DNA of 50,485 nt from contig JAQTOP010000013.1 in assembly GCA_028713285.1 (NCBI GenBank), forward strand, positions 1 through 50,485, written 5' to 3'. The notes below the pieces were generated by a model that searched no databases, had not been told where the DNA came from, and saw only the letters and a list, made by a program, of their open reading frames with translations. Of this stretch, positions 12,695 to 30,440 are shown in pieces; within the stretch, counting starts at the first letter, position 1, and the number at the start of each line of letters is the position of its first letter. The stretch comes from Terrimicrobiaceae bacterium. Lineage in GTDB: Bacteria > Verrucomicrobiota > Verrucomicrobiia > Chthoniobacterales > JAATET01. The position numbers and the translations under genes are program-made.

Positions 12695-14629
12695 TTAGCG
12701 GGTGGCCGGGCCATCGACGAAGAGGCGGAAGCTGTCGAGAGCGACGCGTCCGGCCTTCGGCGAAATGCGGAAGCGGACTTGCACGGCATCCGCTTCCGGC
12801 GGGATGGTGATGAAGAAAAAATCCTCGCTCGATTCGCCGAAGAAATAGGGGGTGAGTGAAAGATCCTGGATGCGGACGCCGCGGTGCAGGAAAGCCGCGG
12901 CGGCGCGGATGGGTTCGGTGGCGTCCGACGAATAGCGAAGCGACAGGAAGAGCGTGCGGCCGGCGAGCAGGGCGGGAAGGGGCCGGGGCGGCAGTTCGAT
13001 CGCATCGTGCTTCGGTTTGGAAAAGTCCCACGTATGCGGCACGGGGAGTTCGGGCAACAGCTCCGTGCGCAGCAGGCGGCCTGTCGAGCATTGTTCCGAG
13101 AGGCGAGCGCCTGCCTTGCGGCGGGCGAGAAAGACGAAGTCGGGCGCATCGTCCTTGAGAATGACACTCCGCGCGGACCATCCGCCAAGCGGCGGGCGCA
13201 GGTAGGGCGCGATTTCGCCGATGGCGGAGAGTTGATCGTATTCGCTTTTCTTGCGCGTTCCGGTCCATATCCATTTGCGGTTGAACCAGATTTCATCGGC
13301 TGTGGCGGCGAGTTGCCGTGTCATCGGCGAAGGATCGAGCAGATCGTTTTGCAGAATCCAATCGACGCGTTCGGCGGCGGCGGGATCGGCGAGATAGGCG
13401 ACGTGACGCATCGGCGCGTGCGAGAGGACGCGCAGGCCGGGAGGAGCCGAGCGTTCGCAGACGGCGATTTCGTGGAGATAATTCGGCCCGCGGAACGGAC
13501 GGTCTGCCAAAAACGCAAGCGCCACGGCAACCGCCGCGAGCGCCAGCGCCGGGCGGCGGCCGATCCAGCGGGCGGGCGGCCAGGCGCGCAGGGGCCGGGG
13601 CAGGCGTCCGACAAGCCATGCGAGCGCGAGGGCCGACAGGATCGAGAGCGGGAAGGCGAGGCTGCCGAGAAATCGATCTCCGTCGCGCATGAGCGGGCGG
13701 GGAGGCGAGAGGCTTTGCAGCGCGCAACTGTAGATCAGCAAGTAGCCAATGGCGTAGAGGACGAGCGCGCGACCCGGCGGGCCGAAGGTCCTCCATGCGA
13801 CCCCGATTCCGAGCAGGGCGGTGAGATTGAGCGCGATGGCGGAAGGGCGATCGAAGAGGGACGGCAGGAAACGGAAGGGCAGCTTCCAGAGCGAGAGGGA
13901 CTCGGTGCCCTTGCGCCCGCGCGCGCCGAGATTCGCATGCAGGCTGTGCAGCCAGTCGCCGGTGAGGGAGTGGTAGATCGCGGCTTCGATGAAGACGAAG
14001 CCCGCCGCGAACAGGCCGCAAAGCCCCAGCCAGAGGACCTGGCGCGGATAAAAGGCGAGCGTCGCGATGACGAGCACGGGAACCGCGAAGACGCCGGTGA
14101 TGCGGTTGGCCTGGGCGACGGCGAGCGCGAGCCCGACCAGCGCGACGAGCGGAACTTTCGCCGTGATCCGCTCGGTGCGGACCATTTTCAACCAGGCGAG
14201 GAACGCGAGGGAGACCCAGAAGCCCTCGGAAAGATCGGGCATCGGGCGGTTCATCAGCGAATCGAGCTGAGGGTGAAAGAGCAGCAGTATGCCGGCAAGG
14301 AACGCAATGGGTTCGGTCGCACCGACCTCCCGGGCGAGCAGATAAACGATCGCCGCGCTCGCACCGAGGTAGATCATCGGCTCGAGGTAGTAGGAGAGCG
14401 CGCTGAAGCCGAAGGGGATTTGCAGGAGCCAGCACAATCCCCATACGGGCCAGCGGAGGTCGTGAAAAGATCCCGGGCTCCATGCGTCGGGAACACCGTG
14501 ATGCAGGTCGAAGGCGAGGCCCCAGTAATTCAGATCGTCGCCGAGCGAGGGGGGAGCCTGGTAAATCCAACAGACGAGGAATCCGCCCAGGAAGAGCAGG
14601 ATCGGCGCAAGGAGGGGACGCGATTTCAT
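12695..14629 (-). CDS. GT-C-like polytopic membrane protein with C-terminal soluble domain
   Basis: A 644-aa membrane protein. About ten hydrophobic segments lie in residues 1-400. The first loop after TM1 holds an acidic pair (PPSLGDDLNYWG), as in GT-C glycosyltransferases of the ArnT/PMT type, which use polyprenyl-linked sugars. Residues from about 420 form a large, probably periplasmic part ending in a beta-rich region. The start ATG 14629 overlaps the upstream stop (ATGA); an open frame runs further upstream to 14881 but is a shadow. Together with the preceding gene and lpxD it suggests cell-envelope glycan modification. The donor and acceptor are unknown. Confidence 0.65.
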   Translation of the reverse strand: MKSRPLLAPILLFLGGFLVCWIYQAPPSLGDDLNYWGLAFDLHHGVPDAWSPGSFHDLRWPVWGLCWLLQIPFGFSALSYYLEPMIYLGASAAIVYLLAREVGATEPIAFLAGILLLFHPQLDSLMNRPMPDLSEGFWVSLAFLAWLKMVRTERITAKVPLVALVGLALAVAQANRITGVFAVPVLVIATLAFYPRQVLWLGLCGLFAAGFVFIEAAIYHSLTGDWLHSLHANLGARGRKGTESLSLWKLPFRFLPSLFDRPSAIALNLTALLGIGVAWRTFGPPGRALVLYAIGYLLIYSCALQSLSPPRPLMRDGDRFLGSLAFPLSILSALALAWLVGRLPRPLRAWPPARWIGRRPALALAAVAVALAFLADRPFRGPNYLHEIAVCERSAPPGLRVLSHAPMRHVAYLADPAAAERVDWILQNDLLDPSPMTRQLAATADEIWFNRKWIWTGTRKKSEYDQLSAIGEIAPYLRPPLGGWSARSVILKDDAPDFVFLARRKAGARLSEQCSTGRLLRTELLPELPVPHTWDFSKPKHDAIELPPRPLPALLAGRTLFLSLRYSSDATEPIRAAAAFLHRGVRIQDLSLTPYFFGESSEDFFFITIPPEADAVQVRFRISPKAGRVALDSFRLFVDGPATR

Positions 14630-16227
14630 GAGGCGGCGGCCGCCGGCCGCGAGGGGCGCAAGCGCGCGGCGAAGATGAGCAGCGTGTCGAGGAGCGCGAA
14701 TGCGTAAAGAATCCAGAACGGCTCGAAGAGCACGCGGAAGCGCGCGCGGATGTTCGCGGTGACCATGATCAGCACGAACAGGCCGATCAGAAACGCGCCC
14801 CAGAGCTGATGAAAATTCAGCGGTGTGCGATCGCGCAGGGCGAGGCAGAGCATCCCGCACAGGGCGGTGGTGTAGAGCCACGGAAGGCCCCGGATCGGCA
14901 CGCCGCCTGCATTCGAGCCGGGCAGGTCGATCGGGGCGACGGGCAGAAGGCTGAAGGACTGCCAGGCGCGGAGAAGGTGCGTGAGGAAATCGCCGGGAAT
15001 CGGGCGATAGGTTGACGCGAGGAAATCGCGCGCGGCCTTGGGCGATTCGAGCGGATGGCCCCAGAGGAGCCCGGAAGCGCGAAGCAGGTGGTCGTCGTGT
15101 CCGCCATTGGTGAGGGCATCGAGCTGGCCGTCGATCGCGTAGGAGTTGAAGTCACCGCTGGGGAGTTCGCGATGCGCGACGATGAATTTTCGCAGCGCGA
15201 GGCCGGGCAGGGCGACGGAATTGCGGACGGCGATTTCCAGACCGGCGCGCTTCGCGATGGAATCGACCTGAGCTGCGGCGGCGCGCGTGGATAAGCCGCC
15301 GGATGCCTGGGTTTCGATGAGAGTTTGTTGAAGCTGTTTACGCAGTGCGACAAGTCTCGGCGGCTCTGTTCGCTGCCAGGCGATCCGGGTTTGATCGGCC
15401 AGCGGGCGCACACTTTCGGCCACGCCGGGCGAGAAGATCAAATGCTCCGGAGTGAACTGGAGCAGTGAGGTGAAGAGCAGCAGGCCGCTTTGGCCGGTGC
15501 GGGAGATGGAAAAAAGGAAGGCCGTCCAGATGAGCGTCGAGGCGACGCCGACGCGGAAGGATCGCCAGTCGCCCCACAGCGTGCGAGCGACGAGAACGAC
15601 GGCGAAGAGGCTGAAAAGCCGGCCCTCGGGGCGGGACCCGGCGATGAAGAGCAGGGCGAGCAAAAGTGCGGCGAGCGTGTAGCGATTCGGAGCGCGGTAA
15701 AAGGCCGTCGCGACCAGCGCAACGAGCGTGATGCCGAAGACGGCATACGTCTCGGCAAGCGCGGTGTGTTCATACCACAGCAGAACGGGATTGAAGGCGG
15801 CGGCCAGCGTGACGGGCACGATGAGCGCGCGCCAGTTTCGCAGCCAGGCGCGGGTGAGCAGGCCGCAGGCGAAAACCGTGGCGATGCCGAGCAGGTGCTG
15901 GACGACGGCGAGGAAGGGCAGCACGGGCAGGTGAAGGATGGCAGGGATGCCATAGACCGCGGGCGCAAGGAAAGTCTTCTTCACGTCGAGAACAAAGGCG
16001 CCGCGCTCGACGAGGCGGGCGGCGGTTTCCAGGGTGGCGGCGGTGTCGTTGTGGACGAATGCCGCGGGCATGCAGGCGAGCAGGACGGCCCGCAGGACGA
16101 CGGCGAGAACGGCGGCGGGCAGGCTGAGCCTGAGCGCAAGCCGAATGTCCGGCGCGCGCAGCCGCCGCAGGAACGTCCGAAGCGCGGGCGGATCGATGAG
16201 GCGCGTGAGCCAGCCGCGACCGGGCAT
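14626..16227 (-). CDS. GT-C-like polytopic membrane protein
   Basis: A 533-aa protein with roughly ten to twelve hydrophobic helices. After the first helix the segment FVHNDTAATLETAARL carries the acidic residue expected for a GT-C active site, and SRPEGR occurs in a later loop. It resembles dolichyl-phosphate-mannose-type or family 39 glycosyltransferases, but I cannot name the substrate. The ATG at 16227 is 3 bases after the rho stop, and its stop overlaps the next membrane-protein start by 4 bases, so these are clearly one operon. Confidence 0.65.
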   Translation of the reverse strand: MPGRGWLTRLIDPPALRTFLRRLRAPDIRLALRLSLPAAVLAVVLRAVLLACMPAAFVHNDTAATLETAARLVERGAFVLDVKKTFLAPAVYGIPAILHLPVLPFLAVVQHLLGIATVFACGLLTRAWLRNWRALIVPVTLAAAFNPVLLWYEHTALAETYAVFGITLVALVATAFYRAPNRYTLAALLLALLFIAGSRPEGRLFSLFAVVLVARTLWGDWRSFRVGVASTLIWTAFLFSISRTGQSGLLLFTSLLQFTPEHLIFSPGVAESVRPLADQTRIAWQRTEPPRLVALRKQLQQTLIETQASGGLSTRAAAAQVDSIAKRAGLEIAVRNSVALPGLALRKFIVAHRELPSGDFNSYAIDGQLDALTNGGHDDHLLRASGLLWGHPLESPKAARDFLASTYRPIPGDFLTHLLRAWQSFSLLPVAPIDLPGSNAGGVPIRGLPWLYTTALCGMLCLALRDRTPLNFHQLWGAFLIGLFVLIMVTANIRARFRVLFEPFWILYAFALLDTLLIFAARLRPSRPAAAAS

Positions 16228-16230
16228 GGG

Positions 16231-17559
16231 CTAGCAGCCGCGCAGGCTGCCGAGGAGCAGTTCCGCGTTCAAGCTGGTGTGCTGGAGATTGGTCTGAAGG
16301 ACTTCCATCGCCTCGACGGCGGGGAGTTCGGCGAGTTGTTTGCGAAGGGCGACCGTGCGGTCGAACTCGTCGGGATGGAGGAGGAGATCCTCGCGGCGGG
16401 TGCCGGATTTCGTGATGTGGATGGCGGGGAAGATGCGGAGTTCGGCGATGGTGCGGTCGAGGTGGATCTCCATGTTGCCGGTGCCCTTGTATTCCTCGAA
16501 AATGAGGTCGTCCATGCGGCTCTGGGTCTCGACAAGCGCGGTGGCGAGGATCGTGAGGCTGCCGCCCTCCTCGACGTTGCGGGCCGCGCCAAAGAATTTC
16601 TTGGGTTTGACGAGCGCCTTGGAATCGACGCCGCCGCTCATCGTGCGGCTGCCTTTGTTGGGCTGGAGATTGTTGTAGCCGCGCGAGAGGCGCGTGATGC
16701 TGTCGAGAAGAATGACGACATCCCGGCCCGTCTCGACGAGGCGTTTGGCGCGTTCGGAGACGAGTTCCGCAAGGGCGACGTGACGGGCCGGGGATTCGTC
16801 GAACGTGCTGCTGAAGATGTCGCAATCGAGCGAGCGCTCGAAGTCGGTGACCTCCTCGGGGCGTTCATCCACGAGGAGAAGGATGAGGTGGATGGCGGGA
16901 TGGTTGCGGCGGATCGCCTGGGCAATCTGCGAAAGCAGCACGGTCTTTCCAGCACGCGGAGGCGCGACGATGAGGCCGCGCTGCCCCATGCCGAGAGGGG
17001 CGATGAGATCGATGGCGCGCGGGCCCAGGTCGGCATGCCCGGGGGTCTCGAGAAAAATGCGGCGGTTCGGGAAAAGCGGGGTCAGCTTTTCGAAGTCGGC
17101 CGGCGTGGTCCACTCGGCGGCGGGCCTGCCCTCGACGGTGAGGACGGAATCGAGCACGAGGCCGTGCTCGCGCTGCTCGGGAAGGCGAAGGCGGCCGTGG
17201 ATCTTCAGACCCGCGCGAAGGTTGTGCGCGCGGATGAGCGGCTGGGGCACGGAGACATCCTCGGGGCAGGCGCGGAAACTGAATTTTTCCCAGCGCAGGA
17301 TGCCGCGATTGCTTTCCAGATCGAAGATGGCGTCGGCGGTGACGGCATCGCCGCGTTGCAGGTGAAAGCGCGCCTGGTCTAGAATGAGGTGATGAATGCC
17401 GCCCTCGGGACGCAGGCGGATCGAAAACTCCCGCGCGCGCGCTGCAAGGGCGGCACGGTCCAGGGCCTGGAGCGCGTTCAGCGAAATCACGAGCGGCTGG
17501 GGTTCGCCGGGAGTGGAAGTCCCCGAGGGAGGCGCTTCGGGTGTGACGACATCAGTCAT
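16231..17559 (-). CDS. rho: Transcription termination factor Rho, divergent RNA-binding domain
   Basis: Hexameric RNA-dependent ATPase that ends transcription. From ATG 17559 it is 442 aa, near the E. coli length and without the long disordered insert seen in many relatives; a start at 17622 would lie inside coaE. Conserved parts: Walker A APPRAGKT (199-206), [28 protein letters not shown], the Q-loop region [20 protein letters not shown] and [12 protein letters not shown]. The primary RNA-binding domain is unusual: where E. coli has GFGFLR (F62, F64), this reads NRGILR (84-89), losing both aromatics. It overlaps the end of coaE by 8 bases. Confidence 0.95.
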
Positions 17560-18154
17560 ACTTTTGGCGGAGATAAGCGGCGAGCAGGGCGGCTTGCGAT
17601 TCGAGCAGGTCGAGACCGGCATCGTTCCAAACGACGTGGCCTGCGCCGCGCATCTTAACGTGCAGGCTCCACTGGGAAGCGAGAATTTTTCGCGAAAGAT
17701 CCTCGGGCAGCGCGCGAATCTGCATCATGCGATGCATCTGGGTCACTGTGCTTGCGCCGACGACGATGACGTGATCGAACAAGCCTTCGGCGCGGGTTTC
17801 GAAGAGGAGGGGGATGTCCACGATAAAAATGCGTTCGCGCGTGGCGGAATCGCGGGCCCGCTCGGTCCATCGGGCGCGAATGGCGGGATGAAGAATCCCT
17901 TCGAGGGTCTTTTTTTTGGCGATGTCGCTATAGATGATTTCGCGAATGAGAGGACGGTTGGGCTCGCCCGCAAGCGAGTAGGCGCGCGGAGAGATCGTCT
18001 CGAGCACTTGTTCGCGGATGTTCTCGTTCGAGTCGAGCAACTCGCGCGCGCAGGCATCGGCGTCGAAGAAGTCCGCGTCGATTCGCTCGAGCAGCATGCG
18101 GCGGAACGTGGATTTGCCGGTGGCGACGCCGCCGGTGATTCCGAGGGTGGGCAT
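17552..18154 (-). CDS. coaE: Dephospho-CoA kinase
   Basis: Last step of coenzyme A synthesis: phosphorylates the 3'-hydroxyl of dephospho-CoA with ATP. At 200 aa it has the usual length. P-loop GGVATGKST is at 8-16; the CoA-binding region includes FDADACARELLD, HPAIRARW and VDIPLLFE, and the lid QMHRMMQIRAL has the usual Arg residues. It is the first gene of the coaE-rho-GT-C-GT-C-lpxD run. As I recall, coaE and rho are also neighbours in Chlamydia, which supports a PVC origin. Confidence 0.95.
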   Translation of the reverse strand: MPTLGITGGVATGKSTFRRMLLERIDADFFDADACARELLDSNENIREQVLETISPRAYSLAGEPNRPLIREIIYSDIAKKKTLEGILHPAIRARWTERARDSATRERIFIVDIPLLFETRAEGLFDHVIVVGASTVTQMHRMMQIRALPEDLSRKILASQWSLHVKMRGAGHVVWNDAGLDLLESQAALLAAYLRQKYD

Positions 18155-18259: not shown

Positions 18260-20890
18260 TCACTTGGCCGGCGGACCCTTTAGCTGAATGGCGGGAGGTG
18301 GAATCTCCTCCGGCAGGCCGATGGGCTCGACGACTTCCTCCTGTTCGACGTCGGATCGGACGGGCTTGCCTTCCGCATCGATCAGCTTTGCCGTGACGAA
18401 AATGATCAGGTTTTTCTTGAGCTTCTGGTCCACGTCGGAGCGGAACAAGCGACCGACAAGCGGGATGTCGCCGAGCAGGGGAACCTTATCCTGCACCTTC
18501 TGGACATCCTCGCGGATCAGTCCGCCGATCGAGATCGTCATGCCATCCCAGATGGTGACGCTGGTCTTGACCTTGCGGGTGTTGAACACCGGCTGATTGA
18601 TCACGTTCGGGCTGACCTCGACGCTGCGAGGCCGTGTGAACAAGGTGGTCGAGACGGCGCCGCCTCCGCTGGCGAGGCCGAGAATCGGGTTTCCGTAATT
18701 GATGAATCCATCAAAATCCACCACCTCCGGGGCGAGTTCCATGTCAATCGTGTAGCCGTCGGCGCCCACGGTGGGCGTAACATCCAGGGTGACGCCGAGG
18801 TTCCGGGTTTCAAAGGCGGACGGTGTGGTGGGAGTAATGATCGGGCTGGTTTGGAAGCCGCTGGCGACGATGCCATTGCCGTTGTTGCCGACGGTTTGCG
18901 GGATTTGCGGCGGGTCAAACTCGGTGGGGTATCTGAATTCGCGAATGACGTTGATGACGGCATGGGCGCCGCTCTTTGTCGTCACGGTCGGCGCAGACAT
19001 CAAGTCGATGCCCTTTTTCTGGTTGATTGCGCGAATGACCACCTGAAACTGGGGATTCGTGTAGATGCCTGCGAGACCGAGCATGGCAGGGGCTGAGCCG
19101 GATGCGAGGCCGCTGGCGCCGGCGAGCAGGGCATCGATGCCGTTGATTGACACCGCGGATTGTGGCGAGGTGCCCTGGCCGGTTCGGAGCCCGGACGTGA
19201 GCGAATTTGAACCGATCGGATTGCCCTGGGGATCGTTAAAGGGAAGCGTGTTGAACGCAGGGGTATCCGATCCACCGGAGGCATAGACTCCTCCGCTGCC
19301 GATCTGGAAGGCGCCGAGCTGCCAGTCGAAGCCCAGTTCCTTGAGGTTGTTCTGATTGATTTCCACGAACTTCGATTCGATCTGGACCTGGGTGGGCGCG
19401 GCGCCGCTGATCGCATCGACGACCGTATCGATGAAGTCGATGTTGTCCTGCGTGTTGCGCACGACCAGCTTGCTTCCGGAGGGGATGTATTGCGCGCTCG
19501 CACCTTCCGGGAACAGCACGCCGAGGGAAGTAAGGTAGTCCTGCGCACTCTGCGTTTTTGAAATTCGTTGCGCCGCGTTCGTTTGATCGACGACCGCAGC
19601 GCCGAAGCCGCCCGTGGTATCCGCAGCCACTTCCTTTTTCGGAATGAAGGTGGGGGGGACTCTGTATTCCTTCGTGATCAGTTCGCTGCTCACGTCCGAC
19701 AGGGGAACGATGGAGACGGCGACGGGATCGATCTTGATCTTCAACCCGGCGAGGCCGGCCAGATAGCGAAGGGCTTCGTAAAGGGGGACATTGCTCAATG
19801 CGAGGGTCACCTGTGTATCCTCGGTCGCGGTGGGAGCCGCGGGAGCCGCTTCCGCTCCGGCGGCGGGAGCTGCGGGCTGTTGTCCCGCAGGCGGAGGAAG
19901 GATGTCCGCGCCGGTGGCGGCCGGCGCAGCCGCGGCGAGCTTGAGGAAGATGTTTACGCCCTTCTTGGCGGGGTCGGGTTCGAGGGTGTCGAGCTTGACG
20001 CTGAGCTGGCGCAGATACTCGACGGCCTCGCGAATGGTGGTATCACGCAGGTCGATATTGGGGACCACGATGCGATTGAGCTTCGCTGTGATTGCCTCAG
20101 TCACGGAAACGTCCGCCCGATTCTGACTGTTTACGGTGTCCTTGCCTCCGGTGAAACGGCGGACCGGGAGTTCCCAGCCCTTCGACACCTGCCATAGCAT
20201 GCGGCTGCGGGTTTCGTTGTAGGCCTCGGCGTCGTATCTTTGCTTCGCGACGCTGACCTTCTCCATGCCCTTGCGCGCAGCGATGTTGTATCGATCGACA
20301 TTGAGAACCTGTTCGTAACGCTTGGTTGCGAGGTCGTAGCTGCCCCGGGCGAAAAAGCCGTCAGCTTCGATCAGCAACTGCGAGACTTGTTCGCGATCCC
20401 TGGCGAAGGCGGGAGTGACCGTCTTGTTGTAATAATCGGGTTGCTCCAGATTGGCGAGCAGGGTGATGGCCGGGCGGTAGGTCGGGTTGTATTGGGGCAG
20501 CAAAATGGTTTTTGCGACCTTTTCCGCGTCGCCATAGCGACCGTGGTCGATCAGATACTCGGCGTAGGCGATGGCTGCCTGGCTGAATTTCCCAAGAGCT
20601 TCCTTGCGCTGCGCATCGACTGCGGGGCCGGAACCGATGGCATCGACCGCCTGCATGTAGGAGAGGTAGGCGGTCTCATAGTCCTTGCTTGCGAGGGCGC
20701 GATCTCCGATCTGGATCAGCCGCTCGGCGTCGAGGACGCTCTGCTGGCGGCGAACAATTTCCCTTTGAGAGGAGGAGGACAGCGAGCCGGAGGAATCGTA
20801 GCTGCCGGCGAAGGATGCCGGCGCACAAAGTGCGGCGAGCGCGATACTGAGGCCGATCGGCCGAATCCGGGAATCGAGAGGTTTGATCAT
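18260..20890 (-). CDS. GspD/PilQ-family secretin, second tandem copy
   Basis: An 876-aa outer-membrane secretin. Signal peptide at 1-28 (ALCAPASFAG), helical TPR-like region to about 210, an STN/N0-type domain (IVVPNIDLRDTTIREAVEYLRQL), a low-complexity Ala/Pro linker (AAGAEAAPAAPTA), N-domain repeats (KLVVRNTQDNIDFIDTVVD, ESKFVEINQNNLKELGFDW), then the secretin beta-barrel domain with the signature region WDGMTISIGGLIREDVQKVQDK and LGDIPLVGRLFR. The C-terminal tail is acidic and Pro-rich. It lies 21 bases after a paralogue of almost the same length. It resembles Amuc_1098. Probably forms a ring-shaped outer-membrane pore. Confidence 0.93.
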   Translation of the reverse strand: MIKPLDSRIRPIGLSIALAALCAPASFAGSYDSSGSLSSSSQREIVRRQQSVLDAERLIQIGDRALASKDYETAYLSYMQAVDAIGSGPAVDAQRKEALGKFSQAAIAYAEYLIDHGRYGDAEKVAKTILLPQYNPTYRPAITLLANLEQPDYYNKTVTPAFARDREQVSQLLIEADGFFARGSYDLATKRYEQVLNVDRYNIAARKGMEKVSVAKQRYDAEAYNETRSRMLWQVSKGWELPVRRFTGGKDTVNSQNRADVSVTEAITAKLNRIVVPNIDLRDTTIREAVEYLRQLSVKLDTLEPDPAKKGVNIFLKLAAAAPAATGADILPPPAGQQPAAPAAGAEAAPAAPTATEDTQVTLALSNVPLYEALRYLAGLAGLKIKIDPVAVSIVPLSDVSSELITKEYRVPPTFIPKKEVAADTTGGFGAAVVDQTNAAQRISKTQSAQDYLTSLGVLFPEGASAQYIPSGSKLVVRNTQDNIDFIDTVVDAISGAAPTQVQIESKFVEINQNNLKELGFDWQLGAFQIGSGGVYASGGSDTPAFNTLPFNDPQGNPIGSNSLTSGLRTGQGTSPQSAVSINGIDALLAGASGLASGSAPAMLGLAGIYTNPQFQVVIRAINQKKGIDLMSAPTVTTKSGAHAVINVIREFRYPTEFDPPQIPQTVGNNGNGIVASGFQTSPIITPTTPSAFETRNLGVTLDVTPTVGADGYTIDMELAPEVVDFDGFINYGNPILGLASGGGAVSTTLFTRPRSVEVSPNVINQPVFNTRKVKTSVTIWDGMTISIGGLIREDVQKVQDKVPLLGDIPLVGRLFRSDVDQKLKKNLIIFVTAKLIDAEGKPVRSDVEQEEVVEPIGLPEEIPPPAIQLKGPPAK

Positions 20891-20911
20891 GGAGTGTGTC
20901 TTCGGCGGCGG

Positions 20912-23533
20912 TTAGTGGGAGGGGAGGGGAACATCGCTGGTGCTGGCGTCCCCTGGGATGGCTTCAGCGCCGGTGGCTCGCGCGTCGGGAACGGCGACCT
21001 CGGTATCGTCTTCAATTTCCTTGATCAGCGGCTGGCCGGCTGGATCGAGCAGGCTGGCGGTGACAAACATGATCAGGTTGCGTTTGATATGTTGATCTGC
21101 CGAGGTGCGGAAAAGACGGCCGACGAGCGGGATGTCGCCGAGAATCGGGGTCTTGTCTTCGACCTTCTGCACGTCTTCCCGCATCAGCCCGCCCAGCACG
21201 ACGGTCTGTCCATCATACACAGTGACCTGGGTTGTGACCTGGCGGACGCTAAAGATCGGCTGGTTGATCACGTTGTTTGAGATCAGCACGGTGGATTGGG
21301 GGCCGAGGATCGTGCCCAATCCGGTAAGAGCGGTGACGGCGGCGGCGCCGTTGACCACGCCGGTGAGCACCTCGCGGGCACTGGTGTAAATCGGGCTGCC
21401 GTAGTTGATGAAGCCATCGAACTCGGTCACGCGGGGCGAAAGGTTCAGGTCGATGGTGTAGCCATCGGGCCCGACCGTGGGTTCGACTTCGAGTTCGACG
21501 CCGAGATTGCGCGTCTCGAAGGCGGAGGGCGTGGTCGGGGTGACCGGCGAGAAACCGGTGCCCACGCTCTGCGGAATCTGCGGTGGGTCGAACTGCGTGG
21601 GATAACGGAACTCGCGCACGAGCTGGATCGTGGCGCGCTGGCCGCTCTTCGCGGTCACGCGGGGCGCCGACATGAGGTCGATGCCCTTCTGCTGATCCAG
21701 CGCGCGGAGCACGACTTGAAATTGCGGATTCGTGAAGACGCCAGCCAGCGCAAGCACGCCCGGGGCGGCTCCGACGGGCGAGCCAAAGAGCAGGCCGTCC
21801 AGCGCGTTCACGCTGATCGCGGTGCTGCCGGTGCGATTGCCGCCGGTGATCGGGCCGGAAGTGAGGCTGGTCGCGCCGATGGGCACGCCATTTGAACCCG
21901 GCGCCTGAATGGGGTAGGCGCTGTTCGAACTCGAACTCGTGGCGCCATTGGAGGTGGTTGTGGTGCCGTTGAGAGGCTGGCCGAAGGCGGTGGTGCCGCC
22001 GCCGCCATAGACGCCGCTGCCGAAGGGGAGCTGGAATTGCCCAAGCAGCCAGTCAAAGCCGAGTTCCTTGAGATTGTTCTGGCTGACCTCGACGAACTTC
22101 GACTCGATCTGCACCTGTGTCGGAGCGTTTGAGCTGTCATTGTCCACGAGCTGGTCGATGAGATCGAGGTTTGCCTGGGTGTTGCGCACAACGAGCTTGC
22201 TGCTGCTGGTGAGGTAGTTGGCGGAGGCGCCCGGCGGGAAGGTGACGCCCTGGGCGGTGAGGAATTCCTTGGCGCCCGATTTTCCGACCGTGGTGGCTGC
22301 ACCGCCGGCGCCCGGCGCGGCGGCTCCAAAGCCGAATCCGCCGGGTGCGGCGGCGGCGCCACCGCCCGCGGCCTCGCCGGTCGCGGGAAGATTCGAGATG
22401 AAGCCGGGAGATACCTTGTATTCCTTGGTGATGAGGGTGTCGGTCACTTCATTGAGCGGCACCACGGCGACCGCGTAGGGCTCGACCTTGATTTTCAGGC
22501 TTGCGGCGGTGGCGATGTATTTGAGGGCTTCGCCGAGCGGAACGTCGGTGAGGGCGAGGGTGATTCGCTGGGCGGAATCCGCAGCCTGGCTTTCCGGGCC
22601 GAGCTTGAGGACGATATTGATGCCGCGCTTGTTCTGGTCCGGCTCGTTCTGATCGAGCGCCTTGGCGCGCTGCTTGATGTAGTCGAGCGCCTCGCGGACC
22701 GTGGCCTCGCGGAAGTTGATGCTGGGGATGCGGATTTCCTCGAGCTTGCGGTTGATCGATGCGGTGCCGCGGAGGTCGATGGTGGGCTGCTCGATGACCT
22801 GGGACTGGCCGGCGTTGTATTTCGTGACGGGCAGCTCCCATGCGGAATCGATCTTTTCGATGAGCTGTGACCGGGTTGAATTGTAGGCGTTGTCCGCGTA
22901 GTTGGCGCGGGCGTTGTTGACCTTCTCCATCAACCGGCGGGCGGCGATGTTGTATTTGTCGATGTTGAGCACCTGCTCGCAGCGTTTGAAGGCGAGGTCG
23001 AAGCGCCCGCTCTGGTAGTAGCCGTCCCCTTCCCGGAGGAGTTGCTTCACCTGCTCGACGTTCGCGACGAAGCCCGGGGTCACCGTCTTGTTGAAGGTGT
23101 CCGGGGACTGGATTTTTGCGAGCAGCTTGATCGCGGGCCCGTAATTCGGATCGTATTGATCCTCGAGGATCACCCTCACCGTGGTTTCCGCGTCCTTGAA
23201 ACGGCCTTCGGAGACCCGCTGCTCGGCGAGCTTGACGACGGCCTCGCCGAATCCGCTCATCGCCGACGCGCGCAGGTCGGAGGTGGCGTCGCCGCCGCTC
23301 GGGAGGGCATCCACGGCGCTTTTGTAATAGGCGTAGGCCGACTCGTAATCCTGGCTGTCGAGCGCCGCCCTGCCCTTGGCAATGGCATCCTGGGCGAAGG
23401 TGTTGACGATTTCCCGGCGGTGGATTTCGCGCTCGGCGGCGCCCTGAACCCCGGCCTGCTGGGCGCAAACGGGGGTGACGGTGGCAGCGGCAAGCGTGAA
23501 AATTCCGATAAAGAGGGCGGATTTACTTGGCAT
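20912..23533 (-). CDS. GspD/PilQ-family secretin, first tandem copy
   Basis: An 873-aa secretin with signal peptide (1-24, TPVCAQQ), helical N-terminal repeats (SQDYESAYAYYKSAVDAL), an N0-like domain (IRIPSINFREATVREALDYI), a Gly/Ala-rich stretch (GGGAAAAPGGFGFGAAAPG) and a Ser/Thr/Asn-rich insert (TTTTSNGATSSSSNS) not shared with the other copy. The secretin domain has YDGQTVVLGGLMREDVQKVEDK and LGDIPLVGRLF. It shares its whole plan with the copy downstream but differs in linkers, so the two may form mixed rings or serve different cargo. It follows the PilP-like gene after 95 bases. Confidence 0.93.
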   Translation of the reverse strand: MPSKSALFIGIFTLAAATVTPVCAQQAGVQGAAEREIHRREIVNTFAQDAIAKGRAALDSQDYESAYAYYKSAVDALPSGGDATSDLRASAMSGFGEAVVKLAEQRVSEGRFKDAETTVRVILEDQYDPNYGPAIKLLAKIQSPDTFNKTVTPGFVANVEQVKQLLREGDGYYQSGRFDLAFKRCEQVLNIDKYNIAARRLMEKVNNARANYADNAYNSTRSQLIEKIDSAWELPVTKYNAGQSQVIEQPTIDLRGTASINRKLEEIRIPSINFREATVREALDYIKQRAKALDQNEPDQNKRGINIVLKLGPESQAADSAQRITLALTDVPLGEALKYIATAASLKIKVEPYAVAVVPLNEVTDTLITKEYKVSPGFISNLPATGEAAGGGAAAAPGGFGFGAAAPGAGGAATTVGKSGAKEFLTAQGVTFPPGASANYLTSSSKLVVRNTQANLDLIDQLVDNDSSNAPTQVQIESKFVEVSQNNLKELGFDWLLGQFQLPFGSGVYGGGGTTAFGQPLNGTTTTSNGATSSSSNSAYPIQAPGSNGVPIGATSLTSGPITGGNRTGSTAISVNALDGLLFGSPVGAAPGVLALAGVFTNPQFQVVLRALDQQKGIDLMSAPRVTAKSGQRATIQLVREFRYPTQFDPPQIPQSVGTGFSPVTPTTPSAFETRNLGVELEVEPTVGPDGYTIDLNLSPRVTEFDGFINYGSPIYTSAREVLTGVVNGAAAVTALTGLGTILGPQSTVLISNNVINQPIFSVRQVTTQVTVYDGQTVVLGGLMREDVQKVEDKTPILGDIPLVGRLFRTSADQHIKRNLIMFVTASLLDPAGQPLIKEIEDDTEVAVPDARATGAEAIPGDASTSDVPLPSH

Positions 23534-23628
23534 GGTTAAGGCGGGTCAGCGTGGGGAGAAAGGCAGGTTTTGGCGAATGCGGCGAACTCGGCGGATCAGT
23601 GGCGTTGGAATGAAGAACGGTCGGGCCA

Positions 23629-24567
23629 CTAGGAGTCGCCCTTGGGAACATGAATCTTGTCCCCTTGGGGGCTTTCGATTACCGCTTCGCTGTCCGAGAT
23701 GTCAATGAGTTTATACTTTACGCCGTCATCCGGCTTGACGGAGAAGTGGTCGTTCTTTTTGACCTTGGGTTCCGAGCCATCCCAGAGGTATTTGAATTTC
23801 GCGTAAACGGTGGGGTCGTTTACCGGTTTATCATAGACGAGAGCGATCTTCTGTCCGGTGTCCTGGTTCTCGACGGTAAGCTCGGAGACATCCAGCTCCA
23901 TGCCGTTCTTGTCCACGGACTTTTTCTCGTAGTTGATGATCTTGTAGGGCGTTCTCGGAATCATGTCGCCGAGCTTGAGGAACTGGGTCGGCTGCTTGAG
24001 GTCGAGCGTGTTGATCGAGAAGGTCTGGCCTTCGTCGGGCGTGCCGCTGAATTTCAGGCGGAACGGAACCTGAATGAATTGCTCGAGGCGCAGTTTCGTG
24101 ATGTAGGCCGGCCGGGACTTCGGATCCGTCGGGTCGGTATGGCCGAGGAATTCCTCGAGGTTCGAGAATTTGTCTCCGTCCGGGTCGGCATTGAGGAGGC
24201 CGGGGTCCGCGTAGTCGAGATTGTATTTCACCAGCCACTCGTTCGGGATGGGTGGGTGGAGGGGAATCTTGTCCTCGAGGGGATTCACCGGTTCGCCGCC
24301 ATTCTTGATCAGATACGGGTCGGAGACAAAGAGCGAGCCCTTGTGTGCGCCCCATTCGTCGGGGTTTGCGATGAGGGCGATCCGTTCCTTGATCAGCTCG
24401 ATGGCCGGCGGCGGCACGGAGTTATTCGGTTTCTTGGCGCTGTTGCGGGACGCGAAAATGTCGTTGAAGGACAGTGCCTGGCTGATGATGAGGCCCGCGG
24501 TGGCGAGCAGGAGGAGGCCAAGGGCGGCGAGGATCGCGCGGTCGAAATGTTTCTTAAACCAGTCCAT
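23629..24567 (-). CDS. PilP-position membrane protein with TSP3-like calcium motif (Amuc_1099-like)
   Basis: A 312-aa protein with one N-terminal transmembrane helix (11-31) and a periplasmic remainder. Residues 128-139 read DPDGDKFSNLEE, followed by GHTDPTDP: a thrombospondin-type-3/EF-hand-like calcium loop. Beta-rich segments follow (LRLEQFIQVPFRLKFSG). By position between the PilO-like gene and the secretin it corresponds to PilP or GspC, which link the inner-membrane complex to the secretin. PilP is usually a lipoprotein; here the anchor is a helix. It also corresponds by order to Amuc_1099. Function is inferred from context. Confidence 0.7.
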   Translation of the reverse strand: MDWFKKHFDRAILAALGLLLLATAGLIISQALSFNDIFASRNSAKKPNNSVPPPAIELIKERIALIANPDEWGAHKGSLFVSDPYLIKNGGEPVNPLEDKIPLHPPIPNEWLVKYNLDYADPGLLNADPDGDKFSNLEEFLGHTDPTDPKSRPAYITKLRLEQFIQVPFRLKFSGTPDEGQTFSINTLDLKQPTQFLKLGDMIPRTPYKIINYEKKSVDKNGMELDVSELTVENQDTGQKIALVYDKPVNDPTVYAKFKYLWDGSEPKVKKNDHFSVKPDDGVKYKLIDISDSEAVIESPQGDKIHVPKGDS

Positions 24568-24581
24568 GGGATCGGGGAGGG

Positions 24582-25493
24582 CTACTTCTTGGAATCCGGA
24601 GGGTTGAACGTGATCATTTCGATGCGTGCCGCAAGGGTGAGAGTCTCCCGTCCGACCAGAAGGCGCATGCTCGTCTGGGGGGTGCCCTGGGCGGCGGGAG
24701 GCTGCGGCAGGGCGGCGCCCGATTCCACCGACGCCTCTTCGTTTTTCTTCGGGCCCTCGAGCTTGCTGTTCTCGATGGTGAGGTTGCGGATGATGAAGAA
24801 TTTGTTGGCGCTGATGATCGCGTCCAGGGATTGCCGCAGGCGGCTTTGATCGGCGACGAAGGCGATCTCGAACGAGTTGGCGGTGACGATCTTCGGCCCT
24901 TCCGCCACGGTGGAGCGGCGATTTCCGGCGGCGGCGGGTTGCTCCGGGCGGGGTGCTCCCCCTTCTTCGGGAAGCGAATCGCGTTTGATGCCGATGATTT
25001 CGCGGATCTTGAACTCGATGAGCTTGTCCACGACGAGGCGGATTGCGTCGAGTTCACGGGCGAGCGCTCCAGCGGATTCATTCGATGGGAGCGTGTCGCG
25101 ATACTGGTCGAAGCCAAGATAGAAGGCGTCATTGAGGGTTACGCCATTCAGTTTCGCGGCTGCGGACACCTCGGAGACATACGCGCGGAGGCGATCCTGG
25201 AACGCTTGCGGCGTGATCGACTCGATTGGCTTCTGCATCTTGAGCGCCTGGGCGAGCAGCTTGTCGTATTCCGCGCGATACTGGGTGGTAAGCGCAGCGT
25301 AGGCCTGGTTGTTTTCCACGCTCGGATACGGCGTGCGATTTTGCAGGGACTGAAGCCGGGCGACCTGGGTATCGTATGTATCGGAGACCTCGGAGAAGTG
25401 CGCGTAACTCGAGTAGAGGAGATAGCCGAGGATGCCGGCGCCGATGACGGTGACGGCGAGGTAGCCGGTGAGGAAGGGATTCCGCCAGTTCAT
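24582..25493 (-). CDS. PilO-like membrane protein (Amuc_1100-like)
   Basis: A 303-aa protein with a short cytoplasmic N-terminus, one helix (about 8-28, LAVTVIGAGILGYLLYSSY), a coiled coil (about 30-95) and a periplasmic alpha/beta domain, which is the PilN/PilO plan. It overlaps the end of the PilM-PilN gene by 4 bases (ATGA). By order and size (about 317 aa recalled) it corresponds to Amuc_1100 of Akkermansia muciniphila, the protein reported to signal through TLR2. No sequence comparison could be run, so the match rests on layout, topology and neighbours. Confidence 0.75.
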   Translation of the reverse strand: MNWRNPFLTGYLAVTVIGAGILGYLLYSSYAHFSEVSDTYDTQVARLQSLQNRTPYPSVENNQAYAALTTQYRAEYDKLLAQALKMQKPIESITPQAFQDRLRAYVSEVSAAAKLNGVTLNDAFYLGFDQYRDTLPSNESAGALARELDAIRLVVDKLIEFKIREIIGIKRDSLPEEGGAPRPEQPAAAGNRRSTVAEGPKIVTANSFEIAFVADQSRLRQSLDAIISANKFFIIRNLTIENSKLEGPKKNEEASVESGAALPQPPAAQGTPQTSMRLLVGRETLTLAARIEMITFNPPDSKK

Positions 25494-27244
25494 GGGAGGG
25501 CGATGGGATTTTTCAGCGGGAGGACGATGGTGTAGGCGTAGGCCCAGCTTTCGTCATCGGGCGTGTTGCGACGGGTGACGACCTTTGCCTTGTCATTGGG
25601 GGCGATGGAGAACAGAGGGGATCCCTGGAGGTTGTTGACAAAATCGTCGATGACCTTCGCCTGGCTCGGGTTGTAGAAATAGAGACCTTGAATCTCGATC
25701 GCATCGATAGCGGGCTTCACCGGCGCGGTGCCGGGCCGCTGGCGGGTGGGAGCGGCGGGCGGCGGCGGCGGGGCCTGGCCCTGCTTGGTGTCGAGCAGGC
25801 TCAACGAGCGGCCATTCGACATCGGGGTGAGCCGGGTGATCCAGATGAACTGCGGGGGCAGCTTTGCGCCGAGTTCGTCGATGATACGCACCCAGATGTC
25901 GCGTTCCAGGGCGCTCGTGAGCAGCGGTGTGGCGACCGCCTCGAGTTGATCCTGGGCCTTCTTGAGGCGGTCGAACTCCTGGGCCTTGGAGTCGAGCGCG
26001 GCAATGTCGCGATTGACACCTTCGAGCACGACGCTTTGCACGGCGGAGGCCTTTGAGAAATAGATCCAGCCCTGGATGAGGGCGAGGAACAGGCAGACGG
26101 TGGCGGCGATGAGAAACGGCTTGCGCCTGGCGAGGGTCTGCGCGTTGACCACGGCGGGCGGGCGCAGATTGATCTCGATGGGGCAATTCCCGAGCTCGCG
26201 AAGCGCAAGGCCGACGATTTCGCCGGCGGCGTGGGCATTGGCGGAAAGGATCTGCGTGTCCACCGTGGATGCGATGGCGACGTTGCGAAAGGGATTGAAA
26301 AACTCCACGGGCATCTGGAGCTTTTCGCCGAAGAATTCGAGCATGTAGGGCATGCTGACGGCTCCTCCCGCGAGGAAGACGCGCAGCGGCTGGGTGCCCC
26401 CCTGGTTTGCGCGGTAGAAGCTGATCGAGCGGACGATTTCGGCGTGGAGGCGGGTGAGGGTGGTGCGGGCGAGCTTGGAGATGCGGCTGGCGAGTTCGTC
26501 CTCGTGCTCGGCGTAGGAGCCGCCCAGGCCGACGAAGCCCTTTTCCTTTTTCGCCAGTTCGGCGGCCTCGACGGGCTGGCCAAATTCCTTGGCGATGGCG
26601 ACGGTGATCGCGTTGCCGCCGACCGGGATGCTGCGGGTGTAGGCCTTGTCGCCTTCGATGAAGATGAGGTTGGTCGTGCGCGAGCCGACATCGACGAGCA
26701 GCGAGCAGCCGTCGAGGTCGGCGTAGTTGTAGCGGAAGGCATTGAGCAGGGCGAGCGGCGCGACGTCGATCTTCCGGGGCTCAAACCCCGCGGTCTCGAC
26801 GGCGCGGTTGATGGCCTCGAGCAGGTCGGTTTTGATCGCGAGGAGCACGACGTTGAGTTTGCCGTCCCTGGCCTCGCCGAGCGGTTGATAGTCCCAGACC
26901 ACTTCGTCGATCGGGAAGGGAATATTCTGCTGCGCCTCGAAGGCGATGATCTGGTTCAGGTCCTCGGCGGTCGAACCGGGCAGCGAGAGGTAGCGGGTGA
27001 AGACGGACTGCGAGGGCAGCGCGTAATTTACCGGGCTGTTGGGGATTTTCGTCTGGGCCTTGAGCTGGGCGATGGCGGCCTCGAGCTGGCCGGGCCGCGA
27101 CGCATCGGCGCCGGGATCGGCAAGCAGTTCGGAGAAATCCAGTCTGGAGAGGGTGAGGGCGCCGGCCGGGGTCGTGTGGAACTCGGCGAGCGCCACATTC
27201 TGCATCCCCAGATTCAGCACACGGATACGGGTCGGGGCGGACAT
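25490..27244 (-). CDS. PilM-PilN fusion, type IV pilus assembly ATPase-like (Amuc_1101-like)
   Basis: A 584-aa protein. Residues 1-350 form a PilM actin-like domain (LLVDVGSRTTNLIFIEGD phosphate-binding loop, VFLAGGAVSMPYMLEFF adenosine motif). INLRP at 358-362 is followed by one transmembrane helix (376-396), a coiled coil and a periplasmic domain. In PilN, INLxP is the short N-terminal peptide that docks on PilM; here both partners lie in one chain. Ordinary PilM is about 350 aa. The gene sits 36 bases after the exported-protein gene and overlaps the PilO-like gene by 4 bases. Confidence 0.88.
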   Translation of the reverse strand: MSAPTRIRVLNLGMQNVALAEFHTTPAGALTLSRLDFSELLADPGADASRPGQLEAAIAQLKAQTKIPNSPVNYALPSQSVFTRYLSLPGSTAEDLNQIIAFEAQQNIPFPIDEVVWDYQPLGEARDGKLNVVLLAIKTDLLEAINRAVETAGFEPRKIDVAPLALLNAFRYNYADLDGCSLLVDVGSRTTNLIFIEGDKAYTRSIPVGGNAITVAIAKEFGQPVEAAELAKKEKGFVGLGGSYAEHEDELASRISKLARTTLTRLHAEIVRSISFYRANQGGTQPLRVFLAGGAVSMPYMLEFFGEKLQMPVEFFNPFRNVAIASTVDTQILSANAHAAGEIVGLALRELGNCPIEINLRPPAVVNAQTLARRKPFLIAATVCLFLALIQGWIYFSKASAVQSVVLEGVNRDIAALDSKAQEFDRLKKAQDQLEAVATPLLTSALERDIWVRIIDELGAKLPPQFIWITRLTPMSNGRSLSLLDTKQGQAPPPPPAAPTRQRPGTAPVKPAIDAIEIQGLYFYNPSQAKVIDDFVNNLQGSPLFSIAPNDKAKVVTRRNTPDDESWAYAYTIVLPLKNPIALP

Positions 27245-27280
27245 TCGAGAAGAGGGCGTGTCGGGTAAAACGTGGAGGGG

Positions 27281-27910
27281 CTAGTTTCCGGCCTTGGCTT
27301 TGACCGCGTCGAAGTAGTCGTAGAACAGCGGTGCGAAGGGCGTCTGGTCCTTGCTCAATACGAGGCCTGCGGGTCCCTGCTGGAATTTGTTCCACCACGA
27401 CGGGCTTCCCTTGCCTTTGCCGGTGCTCATTTCCGCGACGAGCTGACCCTGAACGCTGGCGGTTACTCCGATGGCCTGGGTGGCGGAGGCGACGCTCGCC
27501 GGTGGACGGGCGCCGAAGAAGCGCTTGAGCGTTTGCGGGCTGACGAGGGCGACGGAGTGATGCACGTCGGTGCCGGAGGTCACCCCCGTATGGATGATGG
27601 TTCCGGTGAGAAGAGTGCCGGTGCGGTTTTGCGCGCTGACGTCGTTGAGGAGCACGTAATAGTTGAGCGTGAGGTCATCGATCGGCGGGGCGTTTCGGAC
27701 GGGCGACTGGTAGGTGAAGGAAACTTCGATCCACAGCCAGTCCTGGCTCGTCGCCTTGCGCTGCGGCCCGATGCTGATGGTGAACTCGGGTGTCTTTTCC
27801 AGGCTGGACTTGATGTCGGTGATCTTGACGGGAGAGTTGGAAACCTGTGCCTGCAACAGGGTGGTCGCGACGACGAGGAGGGTGGCTGCCGGGAAGAGGG
27901 ATCGGATCAT
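27281..27910 (-). CDS. Exported protein, first gene of the pil/secretin operon (Amuc_1102-like)
   Basis: A 209-aa secreted or periplasmic protein. The signal peptide ends near LLQAQ (residue 22); the rest is beta-rich (DWLWIEVSFTYQSP, LTLNYYVLLND) with a C-terminal helix FAPLFYDYFDAVK. I do not recognise a named domain. As first gene in the operon it matches the place of Amuc_1102. A pilin-like subunit is unlikely because there is no type III signal peptide. It may be an accessory periplasmic component of the secretin system. Confidence 0.65.
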   Translation of the reverse strand: MIRSLFPAATLLVVATTLLQAQVSNSPVKITDIKSSLEKTPEFTISIGPQRKATSQDWLWIEVSFTYQSPVRNAPPIDDLTLNYYVLLNDVSAQNRTGTLLTGTIIHTGVTSGTDVHHSVALVSPQTLKRFFGARPPASVASATQAIGVTASVQGQLVAEMSTGKGKGSPSWWNKFQQGPAGLVLSKDQTPFAPLFYDYFDAVKAKAGN

Positions 27911-28019: not shown

Positions 28020-28970
<951 letters not shown>

Positions 28971-29048
28971 GCGGCGAATTGTCTATGCGGAACGTGCCGG
29001 GCAACGCGAGCAGAAAACAGGCCCCGGACCGCCCGCGCGCGAATTTTT

Positions 29049-30440
29049 CTATTTTGCGCCCAGGCCGAAGGCCACGACCGGCACGGTGCGCAGCAGGATC
29101 CACAGGTCGAGCGCGAGCGACCAGTTGTCGATATATTCGAGATCCATGCGCACCCAGTCGGCGAAATTCGTCACCGCGTTGCGCCCGCGCACCTGCCAAA
29201 GGCAGGTGAGGCCGGGCCGCATGCTGAGGCGGCGGCGGTGCGCGGTACTTTCAAATCGCTCGACTTCATAGACCGGCAGCGGGCGCGGGCCGACGAGGCT
29301 CATGTCTCCGCGCAGCACGTTGAGGAGCTGCGGCAGCTCGTCGATGCTGGTCTTGCGGATGAAGCGGCCGAATGGCGTGACGCGCGGGTCGTCCTCGATC
29401 TTGAAAACGGGGCCGCTCATCACGTTGTAGGCGGCGAGTTCGGCGCGCTGCATCTCGGCGTTCGAGTGCATCGAGCGGAATTTATACATCGTAAATGGCC
29501 GCCCGTGCCGGCCGGAGCGCTTCTGCACGAAGATCGCGGGCCCCGGCGAGGTGAGCTTGATGCCGAGCGCCACCGCGAGCAGCACCGGCGAGAGCACGAT
29601 CAGGCCGAGCGCCGCGAGCGTGCGGTCGAGCACGCTCTTGACCAGCAGCGCCCACGAGATGTCGGGTGTCGTGCGGAAGACCAGCATCGGCCGGTTCGCC
29701 AGCAGCTCGTAGGTCGGGCGCGCGATCGACGTGCGAATGAAATCCGCGCACAGCCAGGCCTCGACGCCCTCGAGTTCGCACGCCTCGATGGCCCGCTGCA
29801 CGACGTCGAGCTGGATCGAGCCGAAGGCGAGCAATACGCGGCCGACCGAGTGTTCATGCACCGCGGCGATGAGCGGCGCCATGTCGTCCGTCACGAGGGG
29901 CACGCGCGCGACGACGGCGATTTCCAGCCGCTGGCTGTGCGTGAAGCCCGCCTCGACCTCCGCCATCTTCGCCGGCTCTCCGACGATGAGGATGCGCTCG
30001 CCCACCGAACCGTCCTTGAGCGTGCGCTTGTAGATCGCGGTGACGAGGCGCTCCTTGGCGATGAGCGCGAGCGGGGCGGACATGATGAAAAAGAGGATCA
30101 CCGAGCGGCTGGGGATCGGCAGCTTGAGCAGGAACGAGCTGGCCGCCAGCAACGCGAGCAGCCAGAAGCTCGCCCGGGCGATCTGCGACACGGATTTCCA
30201 GACCGTCTTCTCGAGCGGATACTGGTAGTAGCCCTGCAACTCGAGCAGGAACGGGCCGAACGGCACGATGACCGCGAGCACCCACACGAAGTATTTGAAC
30301 TCCGGGATATCCGGTGAGCTGTCCAGGCGCAGGATGCCCGTGAACCGCAGCCAATGGCAGAGCCAGAAGATCGCGCCCAGGATCGCCGCGTCGGCGAGTT
30401 CGTTGAGTTGAAGGTTGATTTCCTGCTTGCGCGCTAACAT
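29049..30440 (-). CDS. Polyprenyl-phosphate sugar phosphotransferase (WbaP/exopolysaccharide type)
   Basis: A 463-aa inner-membrane enzyme that starts a repeat unit by moving a sugar phosphate to undecaprenyl phosphate. About four hydrophobic helices (residues 15-125), a nucleotide-binding-like middle domain ([13 protein letters not shown]), one membrane hairpin near 272-295 and a cytosolic catalytic domain with [34 protein letters not shown] and [16 protein letters not shown] 30440. It lies 78 bases upstream of the decarboxylase gene on the same strand and diverges from aroD. Which sugar it uses is not visible. Confidence 0.92.

Follow-up and report, generated by a model that had tools for sequence, protein, structure and literature searches.

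The stretch of DNA analysed here (hereafter the window: 50,485 bp, positions 1 to 50,485 of contig JAQTOP010000013.1, assembly GCA_028713285.1, of a Terrimicrobiaceae bacterium, Verrucomicrobiota) carries on its minus strand six consecutive genes of the families known from Akkermansia muciniphila as Amuc_1102 to Amuc_1098, which read as an exported protein, a PilM-PilN fusion, a PilO-like and a PilP-like protein, and two secretins. An earlier note, made from the sequence alone, had placed them at 18260-27910, and a check of the open reading frames of the window returned six with exactly these coordinates:

27281..27910, minus strand: exported protein of the Amuc_1102 family, 209 amino acids, first gene of the operon (NCBIfam NF042424, E 1.9e-26; PDB 7dsz, Amuc_1102, E 4e-8)
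25490..27244, minus strand: PilM-PilN fusion of the Amuc_1101 family, 584 amino acids (NF045709, E 6.6e-190; Pfam PilM_2, E 1.5e-35)
24582..25493, minus strand: PilO-like protein of the Amuc_1100 family, 303 amino acids (NF038287, E 8.9e-66; PDB Amuc_1100, E 1.4e-14 by sequence)
23629..24567, minus strand: PilP-like protein of the Amuc_1099 family, 312 amino acids (NF042425, E 1.7e-70; predicted fold)
24151..24186, minus strand: calcium-type loop D128-x-D130-x-D132-x-F134...E139 of the 1099 protein, TSP3-type by sequence (alignment of 36 homologues)
20912..23533, minus strand: upstream secretin of the Amuc_1098 family, 873 amino acids, with N-terminal TPR region (NF042912, E 3e-265; Pfam Secretin and TPR; 'up' clade)
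18260..20890, minus strand: downstream secretin of the Amuc_1098 family, 876 amino acids, tandem paralogue (NF042912, E 6.8e-260; 'down' clade)

The genes are tightly packed, with an overlap of 4 bases between 1101 and 1100, a gap of 14 bases between 1100 and 1099, and 21 bases between the two secretins. Read 5' to 3', NCBIfam assigns them to Amuc_1102, 1101, 1100, 1099, 1098 and 1098. Both secretins exceed the cut-off of the Amuc_1098 family (882.2 and 864.5 bits vs. 750), as do the proteins of the Amuc_1099 (238.1 vs. 50), Amuc_1100 (222.5 vs. 180) and Amuc_1102 families (92.9 vs. 55) for their own; the Amuc_1101 protein reaches 632.9 bits at a cut-off of 650, in a full-length alignment (residues 4-581 on positions 5-606 of the 608 of the profile).

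The gene order 1102-1101-1100-1099-1098 is identical in A. muciniphila (genome G113, locus L050), the operon secretin of which has 907 amino acids, the published length of Amuc_1098 (PMC4960237). Compared directly, the proteins of the window and of A. muciniphila share 24-37% identity; tblastn of the 1100 protein of the window against the A. muciniphila locus gave no match at 1e-3, whereas profile and structure searches do match. The six-gene cluster is thereby confirmed as the Amuc_1102-1098 family cluster in an environmental, high-GC version: The order given in the earlier note is borne out by the NCBIfam families and by the A. muciniphila genome, its protein readings by NCBIfam and Pfam matches and by predicted folds, and the 303-aa and 312-aa proteins, whose match to Amuc_1100 and Amuc_1099 and whose resemblance to PilO and PilP it had made the test of its reading, exhibit both. 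Its suggestion of an environmental relative is supported by the PilMN protein, the nearest named relatives of which (up to 73% identity) are mostly metagenome-assembled genomes of Chthoniobacterales or Spartobacteria. Its claim to extend the cluster, however, does not hold as something new, as the cluster has already been reported in 2026, under the name MUL2, from throughout the order Verrucomicrobiales and, in less conserved form, from Chthoniobacterales (PMC13174399).

Concerning the two smaller periplasmic proteins, single-protein scans with Pfam gave no match for 1099 and 1100, nor were the Pfam families PilO and PilP matched. The predicted model of the Amuc_1100-like protein (predicted local distance difference test, pLDDT, 85.8) matches the crystal structures of Amuc_1100 (Foldseek E 4.2e-14; VIA Z 23.8), followed by Pseudomonas PilO 2rjz (Foldseek E 2.1e-3; VIA Z 10.9). 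For the Amuc_1099-like model (pLDDT 85.5), Foldseek alone found no significant match (best E 0.028), and PilP was seen only by VIA realignment, with PilP of the Myxococcus type IVa pilus model (3jc8_Pa) as top match (Z 9.6, root-mean-square deviation 2.2, 70 residues; next row Z 5.0). A sequence search for a solved structure of Amuc_1099 returned none. The models thus support a PilO-like fold for 1100 and a PilP-like fold for 1099.

The surroundings of the operon in the window contain no pilin, PilB/PilT, PilC or peptidase gene, and to this extent the absence of motor genes put forward in the earlier note stands; it does not extend to the genome (assembly of 3.53 Mb, 97.8% complete), in which PilB, PilC, a prepilin, PilT and the peptidase are all present elsewhere. 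Altogether, 11 matches to T2SSE-type ATPases, 21 to N_methyl (the prepilin-type N-terminus) and four T2SSF platform proteins were found. Contig C111 carries the best-matching PilC with a prepilin after it, PilB1 and PilB2 are divided between the ends of contigs C115 and C89, and the prepilin peptidase is situated on C134. PilT reaches 346.7 bits at a cut-off of 319.1, with 5 matches at E <= 1e-60. The Amuc_1101 protein of the window is the only PilM_2 protein of its genome, and a separate GspD/E/F cluster is located on C93. Contig C110 (L067) additionally carries a secretin, a PilT-like ATPase, prepilins and a GspF-like protein, and C134 (L099) a short T2SSF protein.

A. muciniphila possesses one PilC protein, one PilM and two secretins, both of the Amuc_1098 type. 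Its PilB1, PilB2, PilC and prepilin form one gene run (G113 C1:1903703-1909055), a tandem pair of PilT genes is found at 202479-204204 and the peptidase at about 1795329; the prepilin weakly matches ComGC, too. In two further genomes, G157 (L203) and G015 (L204), PilB1-PilT-PilB2-PilC are situated directly upstream of 1102-1101-1100-1099-secretin on the same strand, and in G157 PilC ends 170 bases before 1102. Of all the evidence, this linkage ties the scattered motor genes of the window genome and of Akkermansia most directly to this machine.

Among 289 genomes of the phylum, 258 contained a strong match to Amuc_1101 (E<1e-20), and all 258 of these a match to T2SSF/PilC; PilT (survey threshold E<=1e-60) was present in 254 of the 258. 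The operon is absent from all eight genomes without PilC (two of 0.9 Mb, six of one family). Within the Chthoniobacterales, four of the eight members of the sample gave a strong match. MUL2 was not detected in Methylacidiphilales by others (PMC13174399), which fits family f9 of the survey. A partial ATPase match at G281:C17:167997-168335 lies within an open frame of 24,172 amino acids, which suggests a giant gene.

In the alignment of the 36 homologues of Amuc_1099, only M1, D128, D130, D132, E139 and P153 are invariant, G133 and F134 are conserved in at least 90% and T144 and P146 are nearly invariant; the window protein has K at position 133 instead of G. The pattern D-x-D-x-D-G-F...E is of the thrombospondin-3 kind, and Pfam TSP3_bac matches 19 of the 36 members (best E 2.9e-10). 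A literature search, limited in reach, found no description of a calcium-type loop in Amuc_1099. A calcium ion held in this loop would probably stabilise or tune the periplasmic bridge. As a precedent, PilY1 of other type IV pili is under calcium control; to our knowledge, no calcium control point on PilP has been described in other bacteria. Many homologues outside the class of the window (L060, L064, L114, L115, L118, L120, L121 and L122) carry a zinc-ribbon-like segment C-x2-C...C-x2-C, varied in some, before the loop, which the window protein does not possess, and some contain a second D-x-D-x-D-G repeat.

The upstream and downstream secretins of the window are 47.8% identical. In a tree of 67 secretins, the 'up' copies of 13 tandem pairs form one clade and the 'down' copies another (support 1.0 each), with largely congruent branching inside both; the 'up' clade also takes in one copy (L142) whose contig ends directly after it. 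Since the copies separate in this way, the tandem pair goes back to a single ancient duplication, after which both copies persisted. The placement of single-copy lineages relative to this duplication has low support (0.319). Where the sequence reached far enough downstream, the named loci of Chthoniobacterales type had a full-length pair in 11 cases and a single secretin in 31, and three apparent tandems (L132, L151, L155) that look like broken single genes were left uncounted. Extra secretins of the Amuc_1098 family also arose separately in Akkermansiaceae-type genomes (unlinked), and in family f11 and G078 (tandem), with the caution that the branches of G078 and G281 are long. The second one of A. 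muciniphila (L049, G113 C1:1979146-1981671; 841 amino acids, 989.7 bits) lies about 0.67 Mb from MUL2 beside genes for a CCA-adding enzyme and an alpha-amylase-like protein, without a PilM of its own.

That the secretin alone was doubled repeatedly while PilM stayed single would agree with mixed rings as well as with two gates on one alignment complex. That one PilMNOP set serves both retained secretins of the window (in one mixed ring, or in two gates, e.g., for filament and polymer entry) while calcium at the 1099 loop controls the periplasmic bridge is a tentative proposal, and in its entirety a rather doubtful one. ARAGORN additionally proposed a tRNA-Gly of 95 bases at 22557-22651 on the plus strand, antisense within the upstream secretin gene, which is probably false, as a tRNA in the window is not supported by Rfam.

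We consider it probable that the products of the six genes are the secretin and alignment parts (PilMN-PilO-PilP-PilQ plus Amuc_1102) of a type IV pilus machine that is retractable and has its motor supplied in trans. This reading is built on which genes are present, on their homology, synteny and co-occurrence and on the predicted folds, and membership in a real retractable pilus machine is most likely because the motor genes are situated elsewhere in the genome and are not missing. From elsewhere would come the extension ATPases PilB1 and PilB2, the platform protein PilC, the GspG-like prepilin, the retraction ATPases PilT and the prepilin peptidase; PilC and the ATPases would serve as the docking site for the cytoplasmic PilM-N, the periplasm would be bridged by PilO (1100) and PilP (1099), and TPR-bearing secretin rings, with two paralogues sharing one PilMNOP set in this lineage and possibly dividing the labour, would constitute the gate in the outer membrane. 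By repeatedly extending and retracting, the machine might then catch polymer outside the cell, e.g., glycan, and pull it up to or into the periplasm. In relatives, MUL2 has been connected with attachment to particles and with the selfish uptake of glycans, uptake of labelled fucoidan occurs, and genetic work, as far as it is relayed in the same source, links the locus to the use of mucin (PMC13174399). Among the outer-membrane proteins of A. muciniphila, PilQ is the most abundant (PMC4960237).

Several points weigh against this reading. Four genomes (G116, G136, G205, G208) combine a strong Amuc_1101 match and PilC with no PilT at E 1e-60, and may run the machine without retraction. The joint absences of PilC and operon are confined to two lineages and count as some two independent events of joint loss rather than eight. 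The prepilin beside PilC in the window genome is nearest to GspG rather than to PilA models, below every cut-off, and PilC and PilB match models of the type II secretion system about equally well. The catching and drawing in of glycan is taken from work on relatives, calcium binding with a functional role at the 1099 loop is suggested by the residue pattern only, and no pilus has been observed in this organism.

The likeness of the linked prepilin to GspG and the about equal scores of PilB and PilC on type II secretion models make a machine of that kind the main rival: a short periplasmic pseudopilus would push proteins out or move polymers through the secretin, and no surface pilus would be formed. 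PilB1 of G157 is slightly above the GspE cut-off and PilC about equal with GspF, the PilM-N fusion is GspL-like in its layout and weakly matches GspL, the four operon genomes without PilT would find a natural place here, and MUL2 has been described as similar to a secretion system (PMC13174399). The presence of PilT in nearly all operon genomes and inside the gene run of G157 and G015 does not agree with such a machine, however, and the window genome possesses a distinct GspD/E/F cluster, such that we regard it as unlikely. A pilus mainly for DNA uptake (competence) or twitching, with glycan handling secondary or specific to Akkermansia, could be recognized in PilT and the full type IV pilus set, which are typical of such pili, and in the weak ComGC match of the A. 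muciniphila prepilin; the tie to mucin use, as relayed, and the fucoidan uptake of relatives point elsewhere, and it appears very unlikely, although no search for competence genes was made. The earlier note had suggested from the absent motor genes that the operon may form a secretin-based envelope complex other than a pilus. Such a complex would be a motor-independent secretin-PilMNOP assembly acting as a trans-envelope scaffold or passive channel. The bare surroundings in the window and the excess of secretin over PilC copies in A. muciniphila would suit it, whereas the full motor set elsewhere in the genome, the lack of any operon without PilC in the 289 genomes and the adjoining motor genes of G157 and G015 do not, and classical pilMNOPQ operons, e.g., of Pseudomonas, are likewise situated apart from pilBCD. 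On the genome search and the survey this motor-free complex was rejected; already strongly disfavoured, it is the least probable of the explanations.

Concerning the flanks of the operon, two conserved neighbours follow downstream:

17552..18154, minus strand: dephospho-CoA kinase CoaE (TIGR00152, E 8.2e-32)
16231..17622, minus strand: transcription termination factor Rho (NF006886, E 3.3e-144)

CoaE follows the secretin or secretins in many Chthoniobacterales loci, and the order secretin-CoaE-Rho is found in many loci; upstream, AroD is 2.6 kb away from the start of the operon. The neighbours named for MUL2 are CoaE, Rho and 3-dehydroquinate dehydratase (PMC13174399), and the coaE-rho flank of the window agrees with this published synteny. 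Between operon and aroD (28020-30440, minus strand), exopolysaccharide genes for an NAD-dependent sugar epimerase/dehydratase and a WcaJ-type polyprenyl glycosylphosphotransferase are found, and downstream of rho (12695-16227, minus strand) two large proteins, apparently multi-membrane-spanning by eye, gave no NCBIfam match.

The operon, its families and their wide occurrence have already been described (NCBIfam; PMC5332112; PMC4960237; PMC13174399). Added here are the partner motor genes with evidence of linkage, an account of how the tandem secretins arose and, for Amuc_1099, a predicted PilP fold and an invariant loop of calcium type. One of the Amuc_1098-1102 proteins is being studied as a therapeutic, and the nature of its machine and the site of the motor had stayed unclear; Ottman et al. 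named these proteins only "pili-like". The partner genes can now be named in A. muciniphila, with linkage and co-occurrence as evidence for joint action, and the residues of the Amuc_1099 loop and the natural variant with paired secretins offer two testable handles.

The organization found in the window is most similar to Amuc_1098-1102/MUL2 of A. muciniphila, with which it shares the five families, their order on one strand and the neighbours coaE and rho. Despite this similarity, the window has two secretins in tandem instead of one, the identity of the proteins is low, and the second Amuc_1098-family secretin of A. muciniphila is unlinked. With PilMNOPQ of type IVa pili (Pseudomonas, Myxococcus) it has in common a PilM-like protein, the PilO and PilP folds and a secretin in PilM-to-PilQ order, motor genes that lie elsewhere, as in Pseudomonas, and a genome with PilB, PilC, prepilin, prepilin peptidase and PilT, whereas it differs in the fusion of PilM and PilN, the extra first gene Amuc_1102, the TPR fused to the secretin, the calcium-type loop in the PilP-like protein and the two PilB paralogues of the linked module. 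The type II secretion system (GspC-M) resembles it by shared ancestry in the GspL-like PilM-N, the PilO/GspM fold, the secretin and the GspG-like prepilin; in contrast to that system, the operon contains neither GspE nor GspF nor a pseudopilin set, the GspD/E/F cluster is separate, and PilT is present and linked in relatives. The system is thus of a known kind, with a modest variant.

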